64,000 nt of DNA from Ischnura elegans (taxonomy: Eukaryota; Arthropoda; Insecta; Odonata; Coenagrionidae): contig NC_060259.1 in NCBI RefSeq assembly GCF_921293095.1, positions 48,465,812 to 48,529,811 on the forward strand, given 5' to 3'. Every line of letters begins with the position of its first letter. Positions within the stretch are counted from its first letter, which is position 1. Shown here in pieces: positions 1-56,413 of this stretch. Below the pieces are notes generated by a model. That model made no database searches, was not told where the DNA came from, and was given only the letters and a program-made list of their open reading frames with translations. The translations under genes and the position numbers were made by a program.

Positions 1-62
1 TTTATGATAAAATGAGTAAGATATTTTCGAAAAAATGCCTGAAACTGGCAATATGGCCGCCG

Positions 63-588
63 CACAGTGGGCGGAAATCGGAAAAAGCCGGACAAAATTA
101 CAAAATGGCTTTTTTTTAGTTATAAACTTGAAACTTCGCGGGTATACTCAAAATTGATTGAAATTTATGGATATGTACTTCATTTGACATAGATCTCACG
201 CGCTACTGAGATACAGAGGCTCAAACGTGATCAATTTGTAACTGTACGGTAAGAATTTATCGATGTAATACTTTAAGATTACGGAAAATTAAAGAAAAAA
301 CCCTATGCCAACGAATTATGTGGCTTTTTATTCCGCAAGAATCCACCCATAACTTCACTATTTACATACTTTGGAATATTTTCAGAGAAAATTGAATACG
401 GGCGTTTTTATGGAAATTTGATCACGTTTGAGCCTCTGTATCTCAGTAACGCGTGAGATCTATGTCAAATGAAGTACATATCCATAAATTTCAATCCTTT
501 TTGAGTATACCCGCGAAGTTTCAAGTTTATAACAAAAAAAAGCCATTTTGTAATTTTGTCCGGCTTTTTCCGATTTCCGCCCACTGTG
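63..588. mobile_element. Non-autonomous Transib-like DNA transposon
   Basis: Both ends are the same inverted repeat of about 172 bp (63-234 and 418-588). It starts CACAGTGGGCGGAAATCGG, and the two arms differ at only a few positions. The element is flanked by a perfect 5-bp GC-rich target duplication CGCCG (58-62 and 589-593). A terminus beginning CACAGTG with a 5-bp GC-rich duplication is the signature of the Transib superfamily, whose transposase is related to RAG1. From each end, CACAGTG is followed by 22 bp and then ACAAAATTA (92-100 on the left), which matches the recombination-signal nonamer at 6 of 9 positions. The 183-bp centre has no reading frame, so mobility would depend on a transposase made elsewhere. 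The superfamily call rests on ends and target duplication only. Confidence 0.75.
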
Positions 589-1344
589 CGCCGGTCAGTA
601 AAATTAGCTAGATATTATTAAAGCTTTCTTAGAATATTATTTGAAAGATGCACTTTCCAATGATCCAAATAACGTCGGATTATAGTTGAGCTATAAACAG
701 GAGGTAAATTTTTTTACAGATAAGAACTTGTTCAGTGGCTCAACACCCAAACCAGAGCCCTGTAAACAAACCGAGATGGGGTTAGGTCTACACCTACAAA
801 AAGGCATGTCTCCCTGCACTCCCGCTACTGGGTGAGGGGTGACACACCACTAATTGCCTTTTAGCTCCGTCTTATCGAACAGCAACGGCAAACGGCCTGA
901 AATACTTCCTTGGTTTTAAGGGTAGGTCATGGCAATGGATGATTCCTACAAGCCTTGTGTGTGTGTGTGTGCTTCGTGCCTCGGTCTTGTGCTTTTTAGT
1001 GTCCTGGCCTCGGCGAAATATCTTGTTTGTTGACTGCACTAGGCCCAGCTGTTTTTCGGTGTGTCCTTGAGCCCATTTATCCATTTTCGCTCACAATAGC
1101 TACTACGGAATTTCAACTTTTTGTGTAAGTTGTTGCCATATTGACAGATTTCCTTTATTAGTAGTTGGTAATTTTTGCCTTCGCATGAATGTGGGAGTAT
1201 AATTTGTTAGTTTGCGTGACATTATTATGTCTGAGTGGTGCGTTTTTGGGAATCCTTTTGCATGGTGGTGACTGATCTCCCCTTGCTAAACACATTGAGG
1301 TGGCTCGTGGGGTATTATATAGATTTAGATACACGTGAGATGAC
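589..1344. other. Intergenic, no gene recognised
   Basis: No convincing coding frame is visible. It contains a short (TG)8 run at 956-971 and a pyrimidine-rich stretch near 780-850. A 70-codon open frame on the - strand (872-1084) crosses the TG run and shows no recognisable domain. Confidence 0.5.
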
Positions 1345-9562: not shown

Positions 9563-12500
9563 GTGGGTACTCAGATTGATTCGTTCAGGTTTATGTGTTC
9601 GAGGAATTTGCTCCAGGGTGCTGCATAGGAGACTCAATTCCATCTCGTAGAAGGCTGTTTCCTGTGGCTACTTCTGTCGTTTTTAAACTGTTTTGAAAGA
9701 TGTCCGCGGCGCGGTGATGAGTTCATTTTGATCCACTTTCTTCTAATTTTGTTCGGTATAAAGTTAGTAATTACGAGGAGTGGCATAGAATAGTTTTGAA
9801 TTTGATAGATCATATTAACATGCATTTAAATTTCGGTGACTACCCCTAATTGTATCTTATTTCCCCGTGAAACTCTATTGAATTGGTCAATCAGTGACGC
9901 GAGAGGAGACTTTTGGCGGCCGCTTGAAATGTGCGTTAGACGACAACAAATTTAACAGTCGAGCATCCTTTTTGGTGGTATTTTGAATTTCCTAATGAAT
10001 TAGGTAGTTTTCTTTGTTCATATTCATTGCTTTATATCTTCTCTTACTTAGAAAAAATATAAATGTTTTCACAACATAGACTAAAATAATTGAAGTAAAA
10101 TTTAGCTTCATAGTTTCTTGGATTGCATAATTGCAGGCGGGATAAGTAGAAAGACTGGAAAGAATCTCTATTTTAAATTCTAATTGACTTTGAAAGTGAA
10201 GATTATCTATCCATGAATGATGCCATTCTGAAACAAACTGACTTATCGCTTTCATACTAATGCAAGTGGATTTCCTGGTTAAGGAGCTTAGTAAGAACAT
10301 TTTTTTTTGTGAATCATAAGTTTGTATTGGAACGTTGATGAGTTTTAACGGAAGACGGAAGGGGTTGCTTTGGCGCAAGGAACCAAGTGTATTTTATTTT
10401 TGATGTTTGTATTTTTTATGCAAAATATTTACAAAAACCTGCTTTTGTTACCGCAAAACTATACTTATGAATGTTAAATTCATTACTGCATGAAGCCTAA
10501 GTTTTTGCACAGCCGAGTGGAACCTAAATGTAACTTGAAAGTTATGAAGTATTCGCAACTTCTGCGGTTTGCTTTGACAGCTCGTCCAGCAAACGCAACG
10601 CACCACCACATATGTATTTTAACTTTTCTCAATTCTTATCAGGTGACGGGGCACGTAAGCGGTGGTCATATAAACCCCGCTGTCACAGTGGGGCTGCTCG
10701 TCTCCGGCCAAGTGACTATTCTCCGTGCCTTACTTTACATCCTGGCGCAGTGCGTTGGTGCGCTCGCCGGTGCTGGTATTCTGAAGGTGAGTAATATATG
10801 CAACCTCTCTTGGCAAGCCCAATATAACGAAAGCGCATAACGAAGTCCCATCAGCTGCTATATAGTCGAGTTAGAGGAAAAAGTTGAGTATTGGATATTG
10901 TTAACAGATTCTTCATCGATAGATATCCTACGTAAAAATTTCAATCCCAATTATCTTCTGAAAAATGAAAAAGAAGAAATTTTGTGCTTTCGCATTAAAT
11001 AGCACAAAGCTTCCATTTAATTTTTCATAACGAATCGCTTTAACGAAGTTACGCCTGAAACCATTCAATTCTCTTCTGAATATTTTCTTATTCTATGCTG
11101 TAATATGAAGTAAACGGTGTACATGAAAGACATATTTTAGAAGAAAGGAAGGGGAAATTCAACCCTAGACCAAATAGATTTTTATTTAACCCTTATTACC
11201 AATCAGCACTATGCATAAATTTTTAATGCGATCTATTCAAAGAGGCCTCTTTTTGTGTCTAGCAGTTCTCAGTCGATCGTTATCAATTTCTTTTTTATTG
11301 TTGTACCGATTCTTGAGACTATGCATTTCAACTTATTACCAGGTTATTTAGAATCACTTGCTCTATCAATGGGAATTCGGAGTGTGCTTATGTAATCGTT
11401 AATTGCCACCCGTAGTCATAGTTAGACCAATAGAAAATTCCTTTCTGGCTGCATTCCTTGGATTGTTTGGATTGCTTTTTAAAAGTACTTAATTCTTGGA
11501 GAACACGCCACCACATGCATTTTTAAAAAAAGCTTGCTGCTCGAAAAAATACTGCTTACGTGGAATTACGGTAAATTACGGCTCGCCTTTCGGCTGAAAA
11601 AGTAAATATTCAGCACATATTCACGATAACTTAGTCCAGTCTGTTGATCTGTCTTTTCTGGGCTATTTATAATGAAGACAGCAGTCGCTAGCCAATGTCA
11701 GCAGCCGCGAATCAATCGTATTACTCTAATTTAGATGGCTATCACTTTTCAATTTTGGAATTACTGCTATCTTCATTTCTCCCTTACTTAATTATATTTG
11801 ATAAGGTTTCTTACTCGCAATCGCAGATCAGAGGAAACCTAAATTACGTACTTAGTGATGACCATAATCGCGTAAGCCATGTCACAATTTTCATTAGAAA
11901 AACTGGCCTTTTCAATTCAATTTAATAATGCAAATGCAAAATAACTTGTTTTCATCACAATATTAAACTGCTGCCCTATTCAATTGGTAATGATTTATAA
12001 TTACTATGCAATAATATAGCGCGTGATACTGCAGACCTTCGCCGCCTACTTAACGGTAGCCCCAAAAACTATCTACTTTTAATCAAGGATTCTTGACTTT
12101 CAGGCGATAACTCCGAGTGAAATAGCAGCCTTGGGACTTGGCAGTGTGTCTTTGGGTCGGTCCGTGACTGCAGGACAGGGTCTTGTCATCGAGGCTCTCA
12201 TTACTGCTGTCTTGGTGTTTGTGGTGCACGCAGTCTGTGACTTGAGCTCCGAGGAAACCAGCGGTTGCTCAACTGTTGCAGCATCCCCTGGACCCCTAGT
12301 CATAGGTCTGGCGGTTGGCACCTGCCACTTGCTTGCTGTAAGTAGAGGAAAAGGCTTCACCAGAGTGGAAAAAACTAGAAAATTGTATGAGGAATAACTT
12401 GCCAATGATTTCAATTCAATACTTAAAAAAAGGACTATGATGGGTCCAACGAGTATTGTTTATTTAATACATTTATATAGCAAGTTATTAATTATCTTTA

Positions 12501-19119: not shown

Positions 19120-19768
19120 CGTAGGTTTCCGCGGCGTTGTTCACGATGACTGCTAATTTTCGGGTTATCCAGGCGCGTCTGTCGTTTATGGTCGACAACA
19201 GTTTCGAAAGCCATCCTGCTTTCGTCTTCAGGTCGAAGGTGAGAAGTTCTCATTTTTTGCCGTCCTATATACCACTGGCCGATCTCCCTCTGTGCGCTGA
19301 TTGGTCAGCACTATCTTCCACACGTTGCTGATTGGGTAGCCGTTGTCCCTGTTTATATTTTGTGTTTTGTGAATTTCAATTGCTTCCCTGATTTGCCTTG
19401 GGTAGAAGCGAATCTCTTTTGCCACTATCTCCGCTTTTTTCGAAATCAATTTTATGGCCCGCCTCACTCCAAACATGCTCTACAATGGCAAACAAGTGCA
19501 GTTGTTTTTCATTAGTGGCTCTCACATGCTCCTTCATCCTTGTCGCCATTCCTCGGCATGTTTGCCCAACATATGATTTTCCGCAGGAGTATGGCGCTGT
19601 GTACACGCCTTCGCATAGCGCCTGCGGGATACGATCTTTTGGTCAAGGTACTTACTTACAATGTTTTGCAATTGAACCTTGTGACCACGTCATGCTTCCT
19701 CGGTATCCTAGCAATACATTCTAACACTCCTGCTATGAATGGAATTGTAAGCCGTACAATAGCAACAG
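19120..19768 (-). mobile_element. Penelope-like element 3' fragment 1 (GIY-YIG endonuclease)
   Basis: On the - strand, LTIPFIAGVLECIARIPRK and VVTRFNCKTL (the linker after the reverse transcriptase) lead into a GIY-YIG nuclease: YTAPYSCGKSYVGQTCRG, MKEHVRATNEKQLHLFAI, EHVWSEAGHKIDFE. After a frame break come EIRFYPRQIREAIEIHKTQN and RDNGYPISNVW. This domain normally nicks target DNA for Penelope retroelements. The reverse transcriptase is missing; truncation falls exactly where the 67-bp satellite begins. A hammerhead-like fold follows (19194-19231). Confidence 0.8.
19194..19231 (-). ncRNA. Hammerhead-ribozyme-like motif at Penelope 3' end
   Basis: Reading the - strand: core CTGAAGA, one extra C, a 6-bp stem GAAAGC/GCTTTC with loop AGGATG, core GAAA, a 2-bp stem III (AC/GT) with a four-base loop, then GTC with cleavage expected after the C. 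This is the order of the minimal hammerheads known from Penelope-like elements. The inserted base and a poor stem I make activity doubtful. Confidence 0.4.
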
Positions 19769-22700
19769 TACGGAGTAAGAAAAAAGCGAAATGACACTAC
19801 AGAATTGAATTTTATTGCCATAAACACTATTTCAGTACGAAGTAAGAAAAAAGGGAAATGGCACTCCAATATTATATATTATTGCTGTAAACACGATTTC
19901 AGTACGAATATGGAAAAATGCAAAATGACCTTCCGGAATTAAATTTTATTCCTATAAACACGATTTCAGTACGAAATAAGTAAAAAGGCGAAATGCTACT
20001 CCAGAATTCAATTTTTAAGCTATAAACACGATTTCAGTACGAAATAAGCATAAAGGCGAAATAAAACTCCAGGATTGAATTTTATTTCTACAAACATGAG
20101 TTTCGTCCGAAGGAAAAAAATGCAAATGACTAAAAAGAATTGAAAATATATAATATAAGCACGAATTCAGAACTATGTAAGAAAAATGCAAAATTGCACA
20201 CCAGAACTGAATTTTGTTGCTAAAAACACAATTTCAGCAAAAATAAAAAAACGCGAAATAAAACTCCAGAATTGAATTTTATTGCTATAAACACGATTTC
20301 AGTACGAAGTAAGGAAAATGCGGAATGGCACTCAAATATTAAATTTTATTGCTCCAATCACGATATCATTTCGAAGTAAGAAAAAAGCGAAATGACACTA
20401 CAAAATTGAATTTTATTTATATAAACACGATTTCAGTGCCAAGTAAGAAAAAAGCGAAATGGCACTCCAGAATGAAATTTTATTGCTATATACAGGATTT
20501 CATTACGGAGTTGGAAAAATGCGAATTGACCTTCAAGAATTAAATTATATTGCTATTAACACGATTTCAGAACGAAATAAGTAAAAAGGCAAAATGTCAC
20601 TCCAGGATTGATTTTGATTACTACAAGCACAATTTCAGTCCGAAGTAAGAAAAATGCAAAATAACTTTACAGAATGAAATTATACTGCTATAAACACGAT
20701 TTCAGAACAAAATAAGTAAAAAGGTGGAATGGCACTCCAAGATTGAATTTTATTTCTACAAGCACGATTTCTGTCCGACGTAGAAAATGCGAAAAGACGC
20801 ATAAGAATTGAATTTAATTGCTAAAAACACGACTTAAGTACGAGGTAATAAAAATGTGAAATATCACTCCAGAATTAAATTTTACATCTATAACACGATA
20901 TCAGTACGAAGTATTAAAATTGCGAAATGACATTCGAAAAAAGAATTTTATCGCTATAAACAAGATTTCAGTACGAAATAAGTAATAAGGCGAAATTACA
21001 CTCCAGGATTGAATTTTATTTCTCAAACACGATTTCAGGAAGAATTTAGAAAAATGCGAAATTACCATCCAAAATTGAATTTATTGCTCTAAATACAATA
21101 TTAGTACAAAGTAAGAAAAAAAATGACATTAAAGAATTGAATTTTAATTTTATAACACGATTTCACTACGAAGTAAGAGATTGCGAAATACAATCCCGAA
21201 ATGAATTTTATTGTTATTAAAACGATCTAAGTACGAAATAAGAAAAATGCGAAATGACACTCCAATATTGAATTGGAATGCAATAAGCACGATTTTAGTA
21301 TGAATTTAGAAAAATTCGAAATAACACTACAAAGTTGAATGATATTGCTATAAACACAATTTCAATACGAAGTATGGAAATTCCGAAATGACACTATATA
21401 ATTGAATTTTAATATTATAAACACGATTTAAGTACAAAGTAAGAAAAATGCGAAACGACACCCAAATATTAAATATAATTGCTATAAACACGATTTGAGT
21501 ACGAAGTAACTAAAAAGGTAAAATGGCACTCCAGAATTGAATATTATTGCTGTAAGCCCGATTTCAGTAGGAAGAAAGGAAAATGCAATATGACCCACCA
21601 AAATTGAATTTTATTGCTATTAGCACAATCCAAGTACGAAGTAAAAAAATGCTTAAATACCCTCCAGAATTGAATTTTATTACTATACACAAAATATCAC
21701 TACGAAACTATCACAATACGAAATAACATTTCAGAATTGAATTTTATTTCTATAAACGCGATCTCAGTACAGAAAAGAAACATGTGAAATGTCACTCTAG
21801 ATATTCTTATTGCTATAAACAGGATTTCCGTACGAAGTAATAAAAATGCGAAATGACACTCCAGAATAGAATTTTATTCCTATAAACATATTATCAGTAT
21901 GAAGTAAGATAAACGCAAAATTAAATTCCACAGTTAAAACTTAATGATATAAACACCATTTGAGTGCGAAGCAAGTAAAATGCGAAATGACACTTCAGAA
22001 TTGAATTTTATTTCTATAAACACGATTTCAGTACGAAGTAGAAGGAATGCGAAATATCACTTAAGAATTGCATTCTTTTGCGGTAAACACGATTTCAGAA
22101 GGAAGTTTGAGAAATTTGATATGACATTCCTGAATTGAATTTTTTGCTATGAACACAACTTCAGTACGATGTAAGAAAAACGCGAAACGACTCTCCCAAA
22201 TTGAATTTTTTGCTATGTACACAATTTCAGTACGAGGTTAAAAAAATGCGAAATATCAATCCAGAATTGAATTTTATTACTTTAAACACGAATTCATTGC
22301 AATATAAGTAAAAGGCAAAATGACACTGCGGATTTAAATTTAATTGCTCTCAACTAGATTTCAGTACGAATTAAGAAAAATGCGAAATGACGCTCCAGAA
22401 TTGAATTTCATTGCTGGAAACATGATGTCAATTCGAAGTACGAAAATTTCTAAAAAGATTCTCCTGAATTCAATATTAATGCTATAAACACGTGCTCAAT
22501 ACGAAGTAAGAAAAATGCGAAATGACATCCAGAATTGAATTTTAATACTAGAAACATGTTTTCAGGATGAAGTAAGAAAAATGGAAAATGACATTGCAGA
22601 AATGAATTCTATTGTTATAAATACGACATCAGTACGAAATACGAAATGTGCGAAATAACACTCCAGAATTGAATTTTATTACCATAAACACGATTTCAGT

Positions 22701-25700
22701 ACGAAGTAAGAAAAATACTAACATGTTATTCAGGATTGAATTTTATTACTATAAACATGGTTTCAGTCCGAAGTAAGGAAAATGCGAATTGACGACTTGA
22801 ATTCAATTTTATTGCTATAAACACGAATTAAGTACGAAGTAAGAAATATACGAAATTACATTCAGGAATGAACTTCATCGATGTAAACACGATTTACGTA
22901 AGAAGTATGAAAAATGCGAAATGGCCCTCCATGATCGAATTCTATTACTAAAAATAGGAAATTAGTATGAAGAAAGAAAAATAGGAAATGACACTCAAGA
23001 TATTAATTTCTTTGCTGTACAAACGATTTCAGTAAGAAGAAACAAAAATGCGAAATGGCACTCCAACAATGAATGTGATTGCTTTAAACACGATTTCAGT
23101 TGGATGTAAGAAATATTTGAGATGACCTTCAAGAATTGAATTTTATTGCTATGAACACGATTTCAGCACAGGAAAGAAACATGTGACGCACTACAATTGA
23201 AGTTATTGCTATAAAGACGATTTCAGTTCGTAGGAGAATAAATCAATATGACACTCCAGAATTGAAAATAGTTGCTATTAAAAGATTTCAGTACGAAGTG
23301 AGGACAAAACGAAATGAAGCACTATTATTGAAATTTTTGCTAAAAACACGATTTCAGTACGAAGTAAGAAAATTTCGATATGATACTCCAAAATTAAATT
23401 TCGTTGATATAATTACGATCTAAGTTCGAAGCAAGAAAAAAGGCGAATGACACTCCAGAAAGGAATTTTATCGCAATAAACACGATTTCAGTACGAAGTA
23501 AGAAAAATGCGAAATGACATTCAGAATGAATTTTTTTGTATTCATCACCATTTCATTATTAAGTAAGAAAAATTCGAAATGACACAGCCGAATCGAATTT
23601 TACTGCTATCAATACGATTTCCGTGTGAAGTAAGAAAAATGCGAAATGATTTCCATGATTAAATTTTATTGCCATGAACACGATTTTTGTGGTAAGGAAG
23701 GAAAATTTGTAATGACCTTCCAGAATTGTATAATATATGCAATTGCTCATTACGAAGTAAGAAAAATGCGAAATGACATCCAGAATTGAATTTTAATGGT
23801 TCATAAACGATTTCAGTTCGAAGTAAGAAAAATCGGAATTCACACTCTGGAAATGAATTCTATTGTTATAAATACGATATCAGTATGAAGTAAGAAAAAT
23901 ACGAAATGACAGTCCAGAATTGAATTTCATTGCCATAAACACAAATTCATTCCGAAGTAAGAAAAATGCGAAATGGAACTCTACAATTGAATTTGATTGC
24001 TATCAACACGATTTCAATAGGAAGTAAGAAAAAAGCGAAATGACACTCCAGAATTGAATTTAATTGTTATAAACACGATTTCAGTACGAAGTAAGAAAAA
24101 AACACAATGACGCAATGTCATTGATTATTATTGCTATAAACACGATAATATTTCAAAGCAAGAAATATTTGAATTTTGAATGACCTTCCAGAATTGATAA
24201 ATATTGGACTTTATTATAAAATGAATTGGAAATATTGGACGTCCGATTTCAGGACGAAGTGAAAAAAGCGAAACACACTCAAAAAATTAACTGTATATCC
24301 ATAAACAGGATTGCAGTAAGAAGTAAGAATAAAATTACGTACTAGAAATTACGTACTTATATTTGATTGAAACTCGATTTCAATTCGAAGCAAGAAAAAA
24401 TTGAAATGACCGCCAAGAATTAAATTTTATTGTTATAAATACGATTAAAGTAGAAAGTAAGAATCGTGCGAAATGACATCCAGAATTGAATTTTATTCTT
24501 ATGAATACGATTGCAGTACGAAGTAAGAAAAATGCGAAAAGACCTTCCAGAATTGAATTTAATTGCTATAAACAAGATTTCAGTACGAGATAAGTAAAAA
24601 CGTAAAATGTCACTCCAGAATATAATATAATTGCTATAAACATGAATCCAGTCCGAAGTAAGAAAAATGCTAAATTACGCACTAGAATTGAAATTTTATG
24701 CTATAAACACGCATACAGCACGAAGAATGGAAAAATGCGAAATGACACTCCAGAATTGAATTTTATCGCTATATACACGGTTGTATTATATAGTATGGAA
24801 AAAGGGATATGGCACTCCAGAATTTAATTTTATTGCTATAAACATGATTTCAATACGAAGTACGAAATGCTGTAAATGAATCTCCAGAATTTAATTATAT
24901 TGCTATAACCACTTTCTCAGTACGAAGTAAGAAACATTCGAAATTGCACTACAAAATTTTATTTTATTGCTATAAACACGATTTCAGTACATAGTAAGAA
25001 AATGTCAAAATGAAAGTCCTGGATTGAATAATAATGCTGTGTACAGCATTTCAGTCCGAAGTAAGAAAATGCGAAGTGATGCATCAGAATTGAAATTTAT
25101 GGCCAAAAAAATGAATTCAGTACTAACTGGGAGAAATGCAAAATCACACTCCAGGATTGAATTTAATTGCTATAAACACGATTTCAGTACGAGGTAAGAA
25201 AAAAGCGAAGTGCACATTAGAAATGAATTAATTATATTTCTGCAATCACGATTACAGTATGATTAAAAAAAGTGGAATGACGCACTAGAATTTTGTTTTA
25301 TTGCTATAAAACTATTTCACTACGAAGTATGAAAAAAGCGAACTACACTCCAGAAATGAATTTTATTGCTATAATAACGATATCAGTACGAATTAAGAAA
25401 AAAACGAAATGTTACATTAGAATTGAATTTTATTGCTATAAACATGATTTCAGTACGAAGAAAGAAAAACGCGAAATTACACTGCCGAATTGAATTTTAT
25501 TTCTATCAACCCGTTTAACAGGACGAAGTGAAAAAAATGGCAAATGCAAATCTAAATTTGAATTTTGTTGTTATAAACATGATTTTAGTACGCTTTAGGA
25601 AAGATTCGAAATGACACTCCAGATATATTTTTTTTTGCTAGAAACATGATATCAATACTAAGTGCGAATAGCTCTAAATGAATGTCGAGAATTGAATTTT

Positions 25701-27640
25701 AATGCCTTAATTCACGATCTCAGATCGATGTAAGAAAAAGCTGAAATGACACTCCAGAAATTATTTTTATTGCTATAAACACAATTTCAGTACGAATTAG
25801 GAAAAAGGTGATATAACGCTCTAGAAATGATTGTTTTTGCTTGAAACATGATTTCAGTACGATTAGCGAAAAGCTCCAAATGAATCTCCAGAATTGAATT
25901 TTAAGGCTATAATCACCATCTCAGTACGATTTAAGAAAAATGCGAAATGACTTGCAGAATTGACTTTTATTGCTATAAACAAAATTTCACGACGAAGTAA
26001 GATAAATGCGAAATGACACCTAAGAATTGAATTTCAATGTTTATTAACACTTTTTTCGTACGAAGTATGAAAAATCGAAATGACATTCCAAGATTATATT
26101 TTACTGCTTTAAACACTATTCCAGTATAAATAAAGAAAAATGCGAAATGGCCCTGATGAATTTAATATTATTGTGATAAACACCATTTCAGTAGGAAGTA
26201 AGAAAAATGATAAATGTCACTCAAGGAATGAATTTTAGTACTTTCTACAAGATTTCAGTACGATGTAAGGCAAATTTGCAATGGCTTTAACACATTGAAT
26301 TTTTATGGTATTAGTACGATTTCAATGCGAAGCAAGAAAAATGAAAAATGATGCACTAGAATTGAATTTTATTGGTAAATACACGATTTTAGTATGAAGA
26401 AAGAAAATGTCGAATGACACTCAAGAACTTAATTTAATTTCTTTAAACACGATTTCATTAAGATGTAAGAAAAACGCAAAATGGCACTCCAGGAATGATT
26501 CCATATCTAAAAACACGATTTCACAAGGAAGTGAGAAAAAAGCTAACTACACTCCAGAAATAAATTTTATTCGCAATAACACAATTTCACACCGATTAAA
26601 AAAAATGCGGAACGACGCTCTAGAGTTGACTTTAACTGTTATAAACACGATTTCAGGACGAATTAAAAAAAAGTGAACTACAATCGAGAAATGAATTTCA
26701 TTCATATAATTACGATTTTAGTACGAATTAAGAAAATTGCGAAATGTCTCACTAAACTTGAATTTTATTGCTATAAACAAGATATCAGTATGAAAAAGAA
26801 ATATGCTAATAGACCATACAGAATTGAATTTCTTTGCTAAAAAACCCTATTTCAAGACGAATTGAAAGAAATGTGAACTGACACTCCAAATTCGAATTTT
26901 GTTGTTACAAACATGATTTCAGTAGGAATTAAAAAAGATGCAAAATGACAATCCAGAAAAGAATTTTATTGCTAGAATCATGATTTCAATACGAAGTACG
27001 AAATGTTGGAGATGAATTTCGAGAATTTAATTTTAATCCTATAAACACAATTTTAGTACGAAGTAAGAAAAAATGCGAAATGACACTCAAGGATTGAATT
27101 TAATTGCTATAAACTCGATTTTAGTGTGATGATAGAAAAATGAGGATGACACTCAAGAACTTAATTTTATTGCTATAAACACGATTTTAGTAAGAAGTTG
27201 AATGAATTTTTGTGCTTTAAGCACAATTTTATTATGATGCAAGAAAAATTTTAAATGACCTTAAAAAATAGAATTTTATTGCTACAATAACGTCATTGTG
27301 AAGTAAGAAAAATGCAAAATGATGCACTAGAATTGAATTTTTATTCTATAAACGGGATTTGAGTACAAAGTAAGGAATAAGCGAAATAACACTCCATAAT
27401 TGAATTCTATAGCTATAAACATGATTTTAGTACAAACTAAGAAAAATGAGATACGAGACTACACAATTGAATATTATTGCTATAAAATCGATTGCAGTAC
27501 GAAGTAAGTTAAAAGTCGAAAAGACATTCCAGGATTGAATAATATTGCTCTCAAAACCATTTCATTTTGATGCACGAAAATTGCGAAATGACGCAGCAGA
27601 ATTGATTTTATTGCCATAAACACGAATTCAATACTAAAGT
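19768..27640. repeat. 67-bp AT-rich satellite array, about 117 monomers
   Basis: A tandem array of a 67-bp unit; the period was measured between the GTACG words at 19768 and 19835. Anchors seen in most copies are GTACGAAGTAAGAAAAATGC, GAAATGACACTCCAGAATTG and TATAAACACGATTTCA. Copies differ by many substitutions and small indels and show no obvious higher-order period by eye. Every open frame inside is periodic and not a gene. The array is bounded on both sides by Penelope-like fragments in the same (-) orientation. No spacers of unique sequence occur, so it is not a CRISPR array. Confidence 0.93.
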
Positions 27641-27644
27641 AAAT

Positions 27645-28658
27645 TCTGATCATCAGGCGATGAATGAAATTACGGAATTGGTTGTCAATAATTATACTCG
27701 TCCAACCTCCCCCATCCACCAGAGTAGTGGGGGAGGAGGGTGGAGCTGACGTCAGCTGAACTCTCACCCCTGTCCTTGAGCGGCGAGCGGACTCTTCTTC
27801 TTATCTAGCGAATAACCTTGTTGGTAACATATTCGCCGTTTTCTCTTCCGGAAAACGGTTTTCCACGTCTGGCTGTGTTTAACGCCGTCAACTCTGTAGA
27901 GATATCGGGGGCATTTTTCAATCTCAATACCCTCCCGAATTAGTCGTCCATAATAGAATTTCTCTTGGGCTAATACCTGCGTCTCGTCGATTAAAATTCG
28001 ATGCCCATCTTCCGAGTAAGCATGCTCCGCTATCGCCGACTTCTCCGTGTCACGATGTTATATCGCTCGTTTGTGTTCTTTAATACGGGAAGTCACGGAG
28101 CACCCTGTCTGCCAAACGTAAGATTTCCGCATGAGCGCGGGATTCTATAAACGCCTTCTACGTTGAGTCTTGTGGTGGGCGTTTATTCGGAATTCTTGCG
28201 TGGCGATGGATGAAGGCTTCCGAATGTTCGTTCTGTCTGAAGGTTTCTTTCACGCGATCATCTTCTTTCTTCAGAGCGCAATCGTCAGAAACCACTCTGG
28301 CCCTATGATGGAGTGTTTTCATGACCGATGCTTTTTGTTGCGGATGATGGTGGGAGTGCGCGTGGAGGTAACGGTCCGTGTGTTTTACTTTTCTGTAGAC
28401 CGCGTGTCTCAGGGATCCGTTCATGCCTCTCTGCACCAGTACGTCTAAAAAGGGTAGTTCTCCATTCATTTCTATCTCCATGGTGAATTGGACGGATGGT
28501 TGGATGATGTTGAGATGATCGGCGAATTCTTGTAGCGTGTCTTTTCCAAGTGGCCATATGACAAATGTATCGTCAAAATATATAATCCAACAAGATGGTC
28601 GAAGCTTGCTCGAGGCCAAGGCGTCTTCTTCAAAATGCTCCATATTGAAGTCGGTATC
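27645..28658 (-). mobile_element. Penelope-like element fragment 2 (RT core plus GIY-YIG)
   Basis: The - strand frame 28700-28158 opens (after a junction at 28658) with NMEHFEEDALASSKLRPSCW and YFDDTFVIW, the reverse transcriptase active site of Penelope elements. FLDVLVQR and 'VYRKVKHTDRYLHAHSHHHPQQK' blocks follow. It then jumps straight to EGVYRIPRSCGNL, the GIY-YIG start (about 28150), skipping the usual 60-70 residue linker. After a frameshift it continues AEHAYSEDGHRILIDE, REGIEIEKCPRYLYR and a basic tail. The 3' end reaches CTGATGATCAG at 27646-27656, then satellite. Stops and a frameshift make it inactive. Confidence 0.82.
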
Positions 28659-28875
28659 ATCCATCGCCACGCAAGAATTCCGAATAAACGCCCACCACAA
28701 GACTGCACGGAGAGAAGGGATAAAAACAAGCCAGTGGCCAATGCCACCATCCCATACGTCGCGGGAACATCTGAGAGAATTTCCCGTGTGCTGAGAAAAG
28801 CAGGCATCGTGACGCGGGACAGATCATTAAAGAAGATGAGCGACTTGTTTCCGGTGAAACTTTTGGTACAAAACA
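28659..28875 (+). mobile_element. Penelope-like fragment in inverted orientation (RT-GIY linker)
   Basis: The + frame reads IHRHARIPNKRPPQD, then ATIPYVAGTSERISRVLRKA and KKMSDLF, the linker between reverse transcriptase and nuclease in Penelope elements. Its first 46 bp (28659-28704) are a perfect inverted copy of 28166-28211 in fragment 2. The linker it carries is the segment missing from fragment 2. Confidence 0.75.
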
Positions 28876-43895: not shown

Positions 43896-46800
43896 TTAAC
43901 CCATATTTTACCAGCGTGTGTTTAAACACACGCTGAGTATGCGGAAATTAAAAAAATAATTTCTAGCCACTCATGAGAGGCAACCATTTTCTAATTACTT
44001 TGACTCATTCTTTGAAACTTCTGAAGGCTCATTACATCTTGTAGTACAGCCTACTATCCCCAGGTTGGCCACCATTGAAAAAAAATATTACCCCTGCATG
44101 TGTAAATTGAAAGGCAAACTGTTTAACCTTCATCTTCTTGAGAACACCAGATGCGAGCATAAAACTTTTCCTGCCTTTATACATTCGAATGTTGAGGAAA
44201 TATGATGTTAGTAAAGTATTTCCCGTGAAGATAATTGAAACACTTCAATGAAAGCGCAAACTTTGCGTGTGTTTAAACACACGGTGGGATAAACCGCTAC
44301 TCTTCCCTAAACCAATTATGGTATTGCCTTACATTGTTTAGCTGTCTGTAAACGTCTCAGATGAGTTATTCTTTGCTCACAATGTATTTCAAAATCATTG
44401 TAACTCGATGCCTGAGATAATTATGAGGTTGAAGAGCTAAAATATAATCCACGTACTTAGTTTGAGATTCTCGCTAAAATGTAACTCTTGCTCCTCATGG
44501 CTGGACACTATATATATAAATGACCGACCCAAGGGTACCTGCCATTGCATTTTGCAAGCTTGGCAGCTGTAGACCAAGTGTTCGTAAGTTCTGTGCTTCG
44601 TAGTTGCCCAAAAAATTTCCTAAGTTTAAATTATTTTAGCTCATCCATTTGTTGGCTGTGCAACACAGTGGATCCTGAGTACACCTTCGCAGTGTCGACA
44701 AACATCAAAAAACGGTAAGAATTGCAAATATTTATTCACTTCCTCATTGAAATAGTTTTTAGGTGTCATGATGCCATCTCAAGCTGTGTTTAGAACTTAG
44801 AATCAAAATGTTCGATCTCTTTTACGTCAGAACTCAACACAGAAGACATCTTATTTGAACTCTACAACTTGGATGACAATGATGAACGAGGGCGAGAAAT
44901 TGATGGAGCAAACACTGTAGATGTGGTTATTCTTCCAGCAAGAGATGGTGACTGCTCTGATGAATATGATGCACCTGAGGAATTTGAGACTCCAGAGTGC
45001 ATAAGGATTTAGGCAAAGGTGTCCTAGCCCAATGAGGTGAGGTACGTCTTGACACTAATCACGGTAAAATTGATTTACCACTTTTTTCTGATGACTGTTC
45101 CTCAATAGGCTCAAACAATAATGAGGTTGGATCTGATTTTGATATGTCTAATGAAAAGAATGGGCAAAATTGTCATAGCAAGAGAAGGAAAGTAGCTAAG
45201 AGTTCAATCAATGTTTGCTCGGCCACCAACACTCATAAAGAATTTAGCTATTTAGAGGTAGGTAGTTACCGTAAGAAAGATAGATCATGGAATAAATTAA
45301 CTCTGAAAACAAATAACATGCCACCTTCAGAGCCTGTTCGAATGCAGCCAAAACCAGAGTTATTAGATAAAAGTCCTTTGGAAATGTTCAAGAGGGTTTG
45401 GGACGAAAATTTTGTGAATATGATATGTATAGAAACAAACAAGTATGCTGTTCAGAAAGGTTTATCAAATGCTGAATTTTCTGTGGACGATTTGTACAAA
45501 TACCTTGGTGTGTTATTACTTTCTGGCTACTGTTGTGTTCCATTCAGACGTATGTATTGGGAAACCAAACGAGATACTTTCCATTCTCTAGTTGCTGGAT
45601 CAATGAGCCGCAATAAATTTGATTTGATTCACAAATGCCTTCATTTTAATGATAACACCCAGATAGATAGCACTGATAGGATTTACAAAGCTAGACCTGT
45701 AGCAGATCACATGAATAAAAAATTTACCGAGATCATAGAATGCTTCGGTAGTGAGTTTTCTCTGGATGAGGGTATGGAGCCATACTTTGGGCGTCATTCA
45801 ATGAAGCAATTAATTAGAGGAAAGCCCATCCGTTTTGGTTGCAAAATATGGTGTGTTACGACTTCAAAAGGATACCTTCTTAAATTTAGTGTTGACACAG
45901 GAAAAACAGACAGACCCAAAGGCATCTCTCTCGGTGCCCAAGTGACAGAATCCATGTGTGTAGATTTCCTTCCTCCTGGTTCAAAGCTATTTGTAGACAA
46001 CTTTTTTACCTCACTTTCATTGCTAGAAAAACTGAAAGAAAGTAATATAAACTGCATTGGAACAATAAGAAAAGACCGCATTGAAGGAGCCCCTGTAGTA
46101 GATGTGAGCAAGGAGGAACATGGTGCATTCTCCGCAATCACTGATAAGAACAGTCCCATTTCACTCATTCGCTGGCATGATAATGCACAAGTTACTACTG
46201 CCACAGACATGGATTCAAAAACTGTATTCGGCCTTAGCTCCTGCACCCGTTGGAATTCAAAGTATAAAAAACATATGAAATTATGCCAGCCACAAATTGT
46301 GAAAATGTATAACCATGGCATTGGAGGTGTAGATTTATTTGATCAGCAGCGCGCAGTGTATCGTGTGAAAATAAGGTCAAACAAGTGGTACTGGCCTTTA
46401 TTTAGATTTTGTCTGAACAGCAGCATTATTAATTTGTGGCATATTTTCCGAATAAACAATCGGAAAAGCAATCAAATTGATTTTTTGAGAGAGGTCGTTA
46501 TCGGGCTACTGTCAAGTGATACTCAGCCTAAATTAGTAGCACCAAGAACAATGAGACAAGCTATAACAGATGGAAGGTTTGATGGTTATAATCGCTGGAT
46601 TAGTAAAATTAAGACCCATCGGCGGTGTGGTCACTGCGGTAAAAGCTCAAAGTTCATTTGTGAAAAAGTTCAATGTGGGCGTACACCCTGATTGTTGCTT
46701 CAAGGAGTACCATGTAAAATATCAGTCCAATTAGTGGTATGCCACAAAAAAATTTTCGAAATATAAATGGAAAATTTTGTAATTTGTACTACTGTAAAAT

Positions 46801-47179
46801 ATAGAAATGCATTCTAATGTGCAATGTGTAAGTTTTTATTGAGCATGAAAATGTATGACTTCAAATTATGATGCTTAAAAAGAAATAGGCTCATATAATA
46901 AGGGTGAAACACAATGTCTTATTAGTTGTTTGTGTAATAAAATTGTGTAGAAAACTCACGTTTTTTTTTATTTTGCACTCTGCCCTCACATTGATCGCAG
47001 GCAAGTCTGATCTGGGCTTTATCCCACCGTGTGTTTAAAGACACGGGCTCTCCCAGCAAAAGTACGACGTTCTGATTTTTTTAACTATTTTTCCCATAGC
47101 AAGTAGTACAAATAGAGCAGCATACCAAAAAATCAGTTACCAAATAGGTAAAAATGTGTTCCGGGATAATATGGGTTAA
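43896..47179 (+). mobile_element. piggyBac element, full length (3.28 kb)
   Basis: The outer TTAA at 43896-43899 and 47176-47179 is the piggyBac target-site duplication. Inside are matching ends, CCCATATTTTACC on the left and CCCATATTATCCC (complement) on the right. A palindrome CGTGTGTTTAAACACACG lies 15 bp inside the left end (43915-43932), recurs at 44266-44283, and once more as CGTGTGTTTAAAGACACG at 47028-47045. The two inner copies carry a further shared CGGTGGGATAAA, making subterminal inverted repeats. A transposase gene fills the middle. It has the full architecture, but the gene is frame-shifted at both ends. Confidence 0.88.
45144..46691 (+). pseudogene. piggyBac transposase, nearly intact (515-codon frame)
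   Basis: DDE/D transposase that excises and inserts at TTAA. Catalytic aspartates are visible at D208 (SLDEGMEPYFGRHS), D285 (KLFVDNFFTS) and D397 with D400 (GIGGVDLFDQ). The N-terminal dimerisation region starts about residue 80 (MFKRVWDENF). An acidic N-terminus (about 44835-45012) is open in another frame and stops at TAG 45010-45012. In the main frame a TGA at 45033 blocks extension, so the 45144 ATG is simply the first after it. At the C-terminus RRCGHCGKSSKFICEK starts the cysteine-rich DNA-binding domain but ends at CGRTP. The missing HPDCCFKEYH part lies just downstream in another frame, so one indel has cut the domain. Probably inactive, but the catalytic core is undamaged. Confidence 0.85.
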
Positions 47180-55920: not shown

Positions 55921-56038
55921 ACATCTACAGAGGGGAAACAAATTTTGTAAACTCAACTGAGATTTTTTAAAATGGCCTCGACATTGCGAGAATGTGTTAG
56001 CCGATATCGCTAATAAAAAATAGCTGGTCTTAAAAAAC

Positions 56039-56413
56039 ATGCGTGATGTAAGAAAATACATTACACAAGAGCCTGCAGTTGGAGAAATGTTATGCGAAGT
56101 AGTGAAGTGCATTAAGTTTCTCCAAGTATTTCTAATAACAACAGCGACAGCAGAACGGTCATTTAGCGCTCTTAGACGTATAAAATCATATCTTCAATCA
56201 ACAATGGGACAGAAACGATTGAATAACTTGGCTGTTCTCCATGCCCACCGTGATATTTTGGATGAATTGGATATCCGTCCAGTCATCAACGACTTTATAT
56301 ACAGTAATCCGGTCAGACGGTGGACATTTGCACCACTCCAAAGACACTCTTGCACTAACAATGGTATTTATAGAAATATTAAAAATCTTTATAAAACAGA
56401 TAAATACATATAG
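56039..56413 (+). pseudogene. hAT transposase C-terminal dimerisation domain
   Basis: A 124-codon frame contains FLITTATAERSFSALRRIKS and then 'TMGQKRLNNLAVLHAHRDI', the hAT-family dimerisation domain (usual form 'P.S(T)A.AERSFS.LRRIKTYLRSTM.QERLNGLALL.IHR'). It should be the last 80 residues of a transposase of 500 or more; the catalytic domain is not visible upstream, where all frames are closed. It sits in the loop of the large inverted duplication. Confidence 0.82.

Follow-up and report, generated by a model that had tools for sequence, protein, structure and literature searches.

A 526-bp element with Transib-type ends and its long-armed relatives in the Ischnura elegans genome

The element at positions 63-588 and its surroundings

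The stretch of DNA analysed here, referred to as the window, comprises 64,000 nucleotides (C19:48465812-48529811) of the 1.72-Gb genome of Ischnura elegans. Close to its left edge lies a short element whose ends are of the type found in Transib, a superfamily of transposons related to RAG1, the antibody-gene recombinase (Table 1). An earlier note on this DNA had described two inverted repeats of about 172 bp that both start with CACAGTG, the heptamer of the vertebrate 23-RSS, followed after a 22-bp spacer by a nonamer-like ACAAAATTA, within a CGCCG target duplication. All of these features were recovered at both ends of the element; the left end starts at 63 and the right end, read along the minus strand, at 588. 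The two repeats are identical at 53 of 53 and then at 114 of 118 aligned positions, with one 1-bp gap.

With up to 3 mismatches allowed, the terminal 18 bp matched the window at the two element ends only and had no match in 100 shuffles. A loose heptamer pattern matched 13 times, both element ends among them, so the heptamer alone is weak evidence for an element.

Table 1. Features of the window, with positions counted from its first letter.
Feature	Position	Strand	Basis
Very probable internally deleted Transib element, 526 bp	63..588		sequence; Transib membership via relatives
Target-site duplication CGCCG, left	58..62		sequence
Target-site duplication CGCCG, right	589..593		sequence
Outermost 172 bp of one parental arm (left part)	63..234	+	164/172 identical to L031 arm
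Outermost 354 bp of the opposite parental arm (right part), directly adjoining the left part	235..588	-	327/355 alignment columns identical to L031 arm
Right inverted repeat matching the left arm	418..588	-	arm alignment
Heptamer CACAGTG, left	63..69	+	sequence
Heptamer CACAGTG, right	582..588	-	sequence
Nonamer-like ACAAAATTA, left, after 22-bp spacer 70-91	92..100	+	sequence
Nonamer-like ACAAAATTA, right, after 22-bp spacer 560-581	551..559	-	sequence
Part of an aquaporin-like gene in an open frame	10478..10840		MIP, E 4.9e-20
Tandem array	19766..27198		67-bp unit repeated about 111 times, 67% matches
Presumed Penelope-type reverse transcriptase fragment in an open frame	28158..28823	-	motif resemblance; no Pfam match
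Apparently complete piggyBac element	44273..47038		DDE_Tnp_1_7, E 5.6e-71
hAT transposase, C-terminal fragment	56024..56413		Dimer_Tnp_hAT, E 2.2e-06

Among the other features of the window, the piggyBac element has TTAA on both sides, a 551-residue open frame and ends identical at 16 of 16 positions (ACACACGGTGGGATAA), the best of 242 TTAA pairs scanned. Searches for the exact telomere repeats TTAGG and TTAGGG returned 0 matches each.

Comparison with the arm of L031, one of eight long copies that were read (L031-L036, L040 and L041), showed that the window element consists of parental arms that abut exactly at 234/235. Its terminal 53 bp show at most one change against the arms it was compared with, the shortened right end of L020 excepted, and its positions 173-355 differ from them by 9-13%. 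The 28-mer spanning the junction, with up to 3 mismatches allowed, had one match in the genome, the element itself, indicating a single deletion derivative and not a member of a MITE family. Positions 63-588 almost certainly represent one copy, internally deleted and non-autonomous, of a long-armed Transib transposon, and this copy may never have transposed in its short form.

The earlier note had labelled the element a MITE, which would make it one copy of a short fold-back family amplified in trans. Its small size, inverted repeats and exact duplication agree with such an origin, and six more short copies, between 917 and 1377 bp long, were examined; their end-to-end match, however, stops at different places. 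A full-length search (40 scored of 2467 candidates) gave an end-to-end match only for the window copy. With the deletion junction unique in the genome there is no amplified short-form family, the MITE label was abandoned, and an origin as a true MITE is regarded as very improbable.

One copy of 1001 bp, L020 (C1:147665436-147666436; duplication CGATG), keeps only 27 bp of terminal repeat at its right end, which is without the nonamer-like block and has a unique junction. This copy was considered as evidence that the block is dispensable and was rejected as such, because, with the junction unique, the short end can be explained by a deletion after insertion.

For the window copy as a deletion derivative, the following course of events is proposed. 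A Transib transposase from the same or a sister family would bind the ~35-bp terminal block and cleave at its CAC end with hairpins forming on the flanking DNA, the reported mode of HzTransib cleavage, and the element would then be pasted into CGCCG, generating the 5-bp duplication. The interior and most of one arm would have been lost either in place after insertion or during repair before one last jump, two routes that are not separated by the present data.

Target sites and transposase in the wider family

The first 27 bp of the element, with up to 3 mismatches, matched 1900 times in forward and 1898 times in reverse orientation in the genome (~3,800 ends), and a reversed-pattern control gave 0 matches. 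Among the ends listed, 74 on C1 were exact, and 22 inward-facing pairs lay less than 10 kb apart there, with lengths of 917-6830 bp; 12 of these 22 pairs measure 4.4-4.9 kb. A second, related type of end (35 bp, with 3 mismatches allowed) had 2203 and 2194 genome matches on the two strands and 0 in the control; these counts overlap with those of the window-type end, because only 3 of those bases distinguish the two types.

Target duplications were inspected in 33 end pairs (11 found via arm similarity, the other 20 pairs from C1, and 2 out of 6 listed for C2), a sample biased to young copies in that 22 pairs were chosen by exact end sequences. Exact 5-bp duplications were found in 29 of the 33, and no pair had a match at length 3, 4 or 6-10. 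The 5-bp duplication of Transib is therefore the rule in this sample, and a majority of duplications of other lengths, which the earlier note had named as evidence against its reading, was not found. The other four pairs showed CGTCG after an extra G (one), one mismatch (two) or inverted flanks (one). CGNCG, named as the Transib target preference in one study (PMC4735498), accounts for 20 of the 29 exact duplications, and the CGCCG of the window element is such a site. When left and right flanks were mixed between different pairs, equal 5-mers occurred in 121 of 1056 combinations, because the targets resemble each other. Matching 5-bp duplications were present in all of six 4.5-5.5-kb copies with the same ends as the window element.

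Beyond CGNCG, a weak wider target preference was seen in 93 ends (L001-L093) at -12 to -6, of up to ~0.5 bits per position. The L031 target is itself a repeat: when its two flanks were joined through a single 5-bp site and used as a query against the genome (40 scored of 1286 candidates), paralogues ran across the join, as at C4:114452146-114452245 (100 bp, query 53-152, 95%). The left flanks of L031 and L036 are 89% identical over 53 bp, and the 12 bases adjoining one end recur in L032, so one repeat seems to have been hit by insertion more than once.

Pieces of the transposase were found in L034, a relative that shares the ends of the window element, is 5520 bp long between them and has the duplication CTATG. 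Its open frames match most of the length of PDB 6pqn, labelled 'DNA-mediated transposase' and taken here to be HzTransib, over residues 8-144 (E 1.1e-21), 141-212 (E 4.6e-12), 212-280 (E 1.2e-15) and 339-483 (E 9.6e-40). The earlier note had assigned the element to Transib, had proposed a search for longer elements with a Transib transposase between such ends, and had named relatives with a non-Transib transposase as counter-evidence. The search led to L034, 5.5 kb long, the pieces it encodes are those of a Transib transposase, and the assignment is sound.

A derivative of a RAG-like (RAG1L-RAG2L) transposon would also fit a CAC start and 5-bp duplications, which are common to RAGL elements (PMC7204232). 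However, the protostome RAGL end consensus given there (CACTWMCAAACKTYKBB) does not fit CACAGTGGGCGG, and the L034 protein matches the transposase chain 6pqn with high significance; the probability of such an origin is considered negligible.

The catalytic residues of HzTransib, published as D126, D225 and E436 (PMC6941560), fall on D, D and E of 6pqn with a constant offset of 17. Aligned by eye with this offset, L034 has D, N and E at these positions, and the N at the second catalytic Asp suggests that its transposase is probably dead. No working transposase of the window element's own family was seen among the eight long copies, seven of which have N-terminal pieces only and no C-terminal transposase exon. 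In Pfam, the transposase pieces were not recognised above the cut-offs (RAG1, E 0.11, was below its own), and an upstream open frame had no match. A profile of the N-terminal region from six copies revealed no nonamer-binding domain in the PDB; its only matches were 6pqn (E 0.011) and, at E 0.14 and above, weakly scoring chains of unrelated proteins, most of them T4 lysozyme.

A genome search with the C-terminal exon produced 4173 candidates; 150 were scored, and these yielded 150 matches. Among the matches listed, only L034 itself and C2:47004078 (90%, one stop), a stretch that shows one window-type end, reach at least 90% to the L034 exon, and the others lie at 47-72%. For the N-terminal exon there were 2644 candidates, and the 150 scored yielded 153 matches; by coordinates, and among the ends listed, this exon is enclosed by at least 7 further pairs of window-type ends, for example at C1:20905077-20909848 and C2:8282305-8287081. 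Open exons also lie between ends of the related type, as at C1:111854919-111859128 and C1:162171838-162177161. Open exons for both the N- and the C-terminal part were found close together in other families (e.g. C19:7472586-7473254 and C19:7474162-7474572), which makes a transposase source in trans plausible for the window family.

One sister family (L046-L051), at 65% in the C-terminal exon, has CACAGTGGTCTGAAATCGGAAAAAGCT ends; both ends were found in 5 of 6 stretches, with matching 5-bp duplications in 5 of 5. Here the transposase exon and the CACAGTG ends lie within one element, and L053, at the same locus as L046, matches 6pqn with E 1e-41. Transposase sequence related to Transib and the RAG1 core is thus found between such ends both in L034 and in this sister family. 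Ten further transposase groups were picked from the C-terminal exon matches and followed, in two copies each, for ~2 kb beyond the exon. In F4, F5, F7, F8, F11 and F12, the copies cease to be homologous no more than 5 bp from a CACAGTG end. The F10 end was placed by motif only, because its copies share flanks; F13 has an end in one of two copies, and F3 and F6 showed none in the 2 kb beyond the C-terminal exon. Since some of the ten groups have one common end sequence, they may not all be separate families.

Conservation along the ends

Twelve ends yielded ten distinct 45-bp sequences, some of them close variants and all of common descent, so that the following counts are not independent. CACAGTG, a CAC start with an RSS-like heptamer as in Transib, is present in all ten and is invariant at 7/7 positions. 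Invariant positions amount to 12/22 in the spacer (mean majority 0.93), 5/9 in the nonamer-like stretch (0.81) and 0/7 in the next seven bases (0.63), indicating that conservation extends to about position 35 and then drops. For the sampled ends this supports a continuous conserved Transib block of ~35 bp rather than islands of heptamer and nonamer. Within the window family, 87 sampled ends are 98-100% uniform at positions 1-27 and 96-100% over the nonamer-like block; the heptamer is identical in 87/87, which is not an independent test in ends selected for up to 5 mismatches in the 27-bp end.

A bipartite RSS, in which heptamer and nonamer are recognition islands and the 22-bp spacer sets the distance only, was weighed against this block. 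CAAAA at positions 31-35 is invariant in all ten distinct ends and always stands at the 22-bp spacer, and eight of the ten score 7/9 against the nonamer consensus ACAAAAACC (shuffle chance 0.4-1.8% at spacers 22-24, three ends tested). The window family and F10, in contrast, reach only 6/9, F10 doing better at spacer 10. A shuffled window end attains 6/9 at spacers 22-24 in 4.4% of trials, and the window end itself is equally good at spacers 10, 11 and 30. As the spacers are also equal at both ends and not a 12/23 pair, and the spacer is as well conserved as the nonamer-like stretch, the bipartite arrangement is considered unlikely.

Two islands with a freely varying spacer and a 12/23 pair, as in vertebrate RSSs, were thus not seen. 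Of the 23-RSS label given in the earlier note a resemblance is retained; the 22-bp spacer at both ends, the 6/9 nonamer and a spacer as conserved as the nonamer-like block depart from it. The heptamer and nonamer had been expected to be conserved best; this held for the heptamer and failed for the nonamer. This calls for caution in taking short A-runs in single elements for nonamers. With thousands of Transib ends in several families, accompanied by their duplications, this one genome is a natural data set on the end positions that matter.

Long arms and comparison with known systems

The arms of the eight long copies measure 769-1465 bp. L031-L033 are near-identical and uninformative on arm homogenisation, which leaves L034, L035, L036, L040 and L041. 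Over the outer 760 bp, with gaps ignored, the two arms of an element are 98.8-100% identical, and the best arm of any other element reaches 96.1-98.2%; in all five, the arms match each other better than those of any other element compared, which suggests conversion between the arms of one element. Over 900 bp with gaps counted, L036 shows no such advantage (98.0 within, 98.2 to another element). Judged from these alignments, conversion would be the simplest reading of the within-element identity, and the homogenised arms offer a testable case of it.

Around one element, at C1:114687675-114692254 (L076, L077, L114 and L115), the flanks are exact inverted copies over 1,472 bp at 100%, either a large palindrome or an assembly artefact.

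A more tentative proposal, possible but on balance doubtful, is that of a fold-back Transib whose kilobase arms are rewritten from each other, by fold-back priming or gene conversion after transposase breaks, giving rise both to shrunken copies such as the one at 63-588 and to flank-carrying palindromes such as that at C1:114687675-114692254. If true, this Transib family would be an engine of inverted duplication.

Compared with an ordinary Transib copy, the unusual feature is the long, self-matching arms of the parent elements; otherwise the window element is ordinary. Hztransib of Helicoverpa zea, as described in PMC1852546, likewise combines a Transib transposase, a 5-bp duplication (GCTCG) and TIRs called long; it measures 3518 bp, whereas the window copy has 526 bp and is non-coding. 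A literature search for 'Transib' with 'long terminal inverted repeats' returned no paper, yet that same text calls the Hztransib TIRs long. Transib elements with a heptamer, a nonamer-like sequence and symmetric 20-22-bp spacers are already on record (PMC8355894), like the 22 bp at both ends of the window element; the parent elements here have 0.77-1.47-kb arms, near-identical within an element.

Insect Transib MITEs resemble the window element in being short and having a 5-bp duplication. In PMC9033116 and PMC5199201 they measure 75-564 bp (mean ~482 bp) with TIRs of 13-57 bp, in contrast to the 172-bp repeats and single-copy short form found here. Galileo, a fold-back element with TIRs of up to 1.2 kb (PMC2775673), shares its long TIRs and fold-back shape with the parent Transib elements, but it belongs to another superfamily, the P superfamily, and makes 7-bp duplications. 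The vertebrate 23-RSS differs from the window end, which has a 22-bp spacer at both ends, a 6/9 nonamer and a conserved spacer, and is like it in the same heptamer CACAGTG and in an A-run near the right distance.
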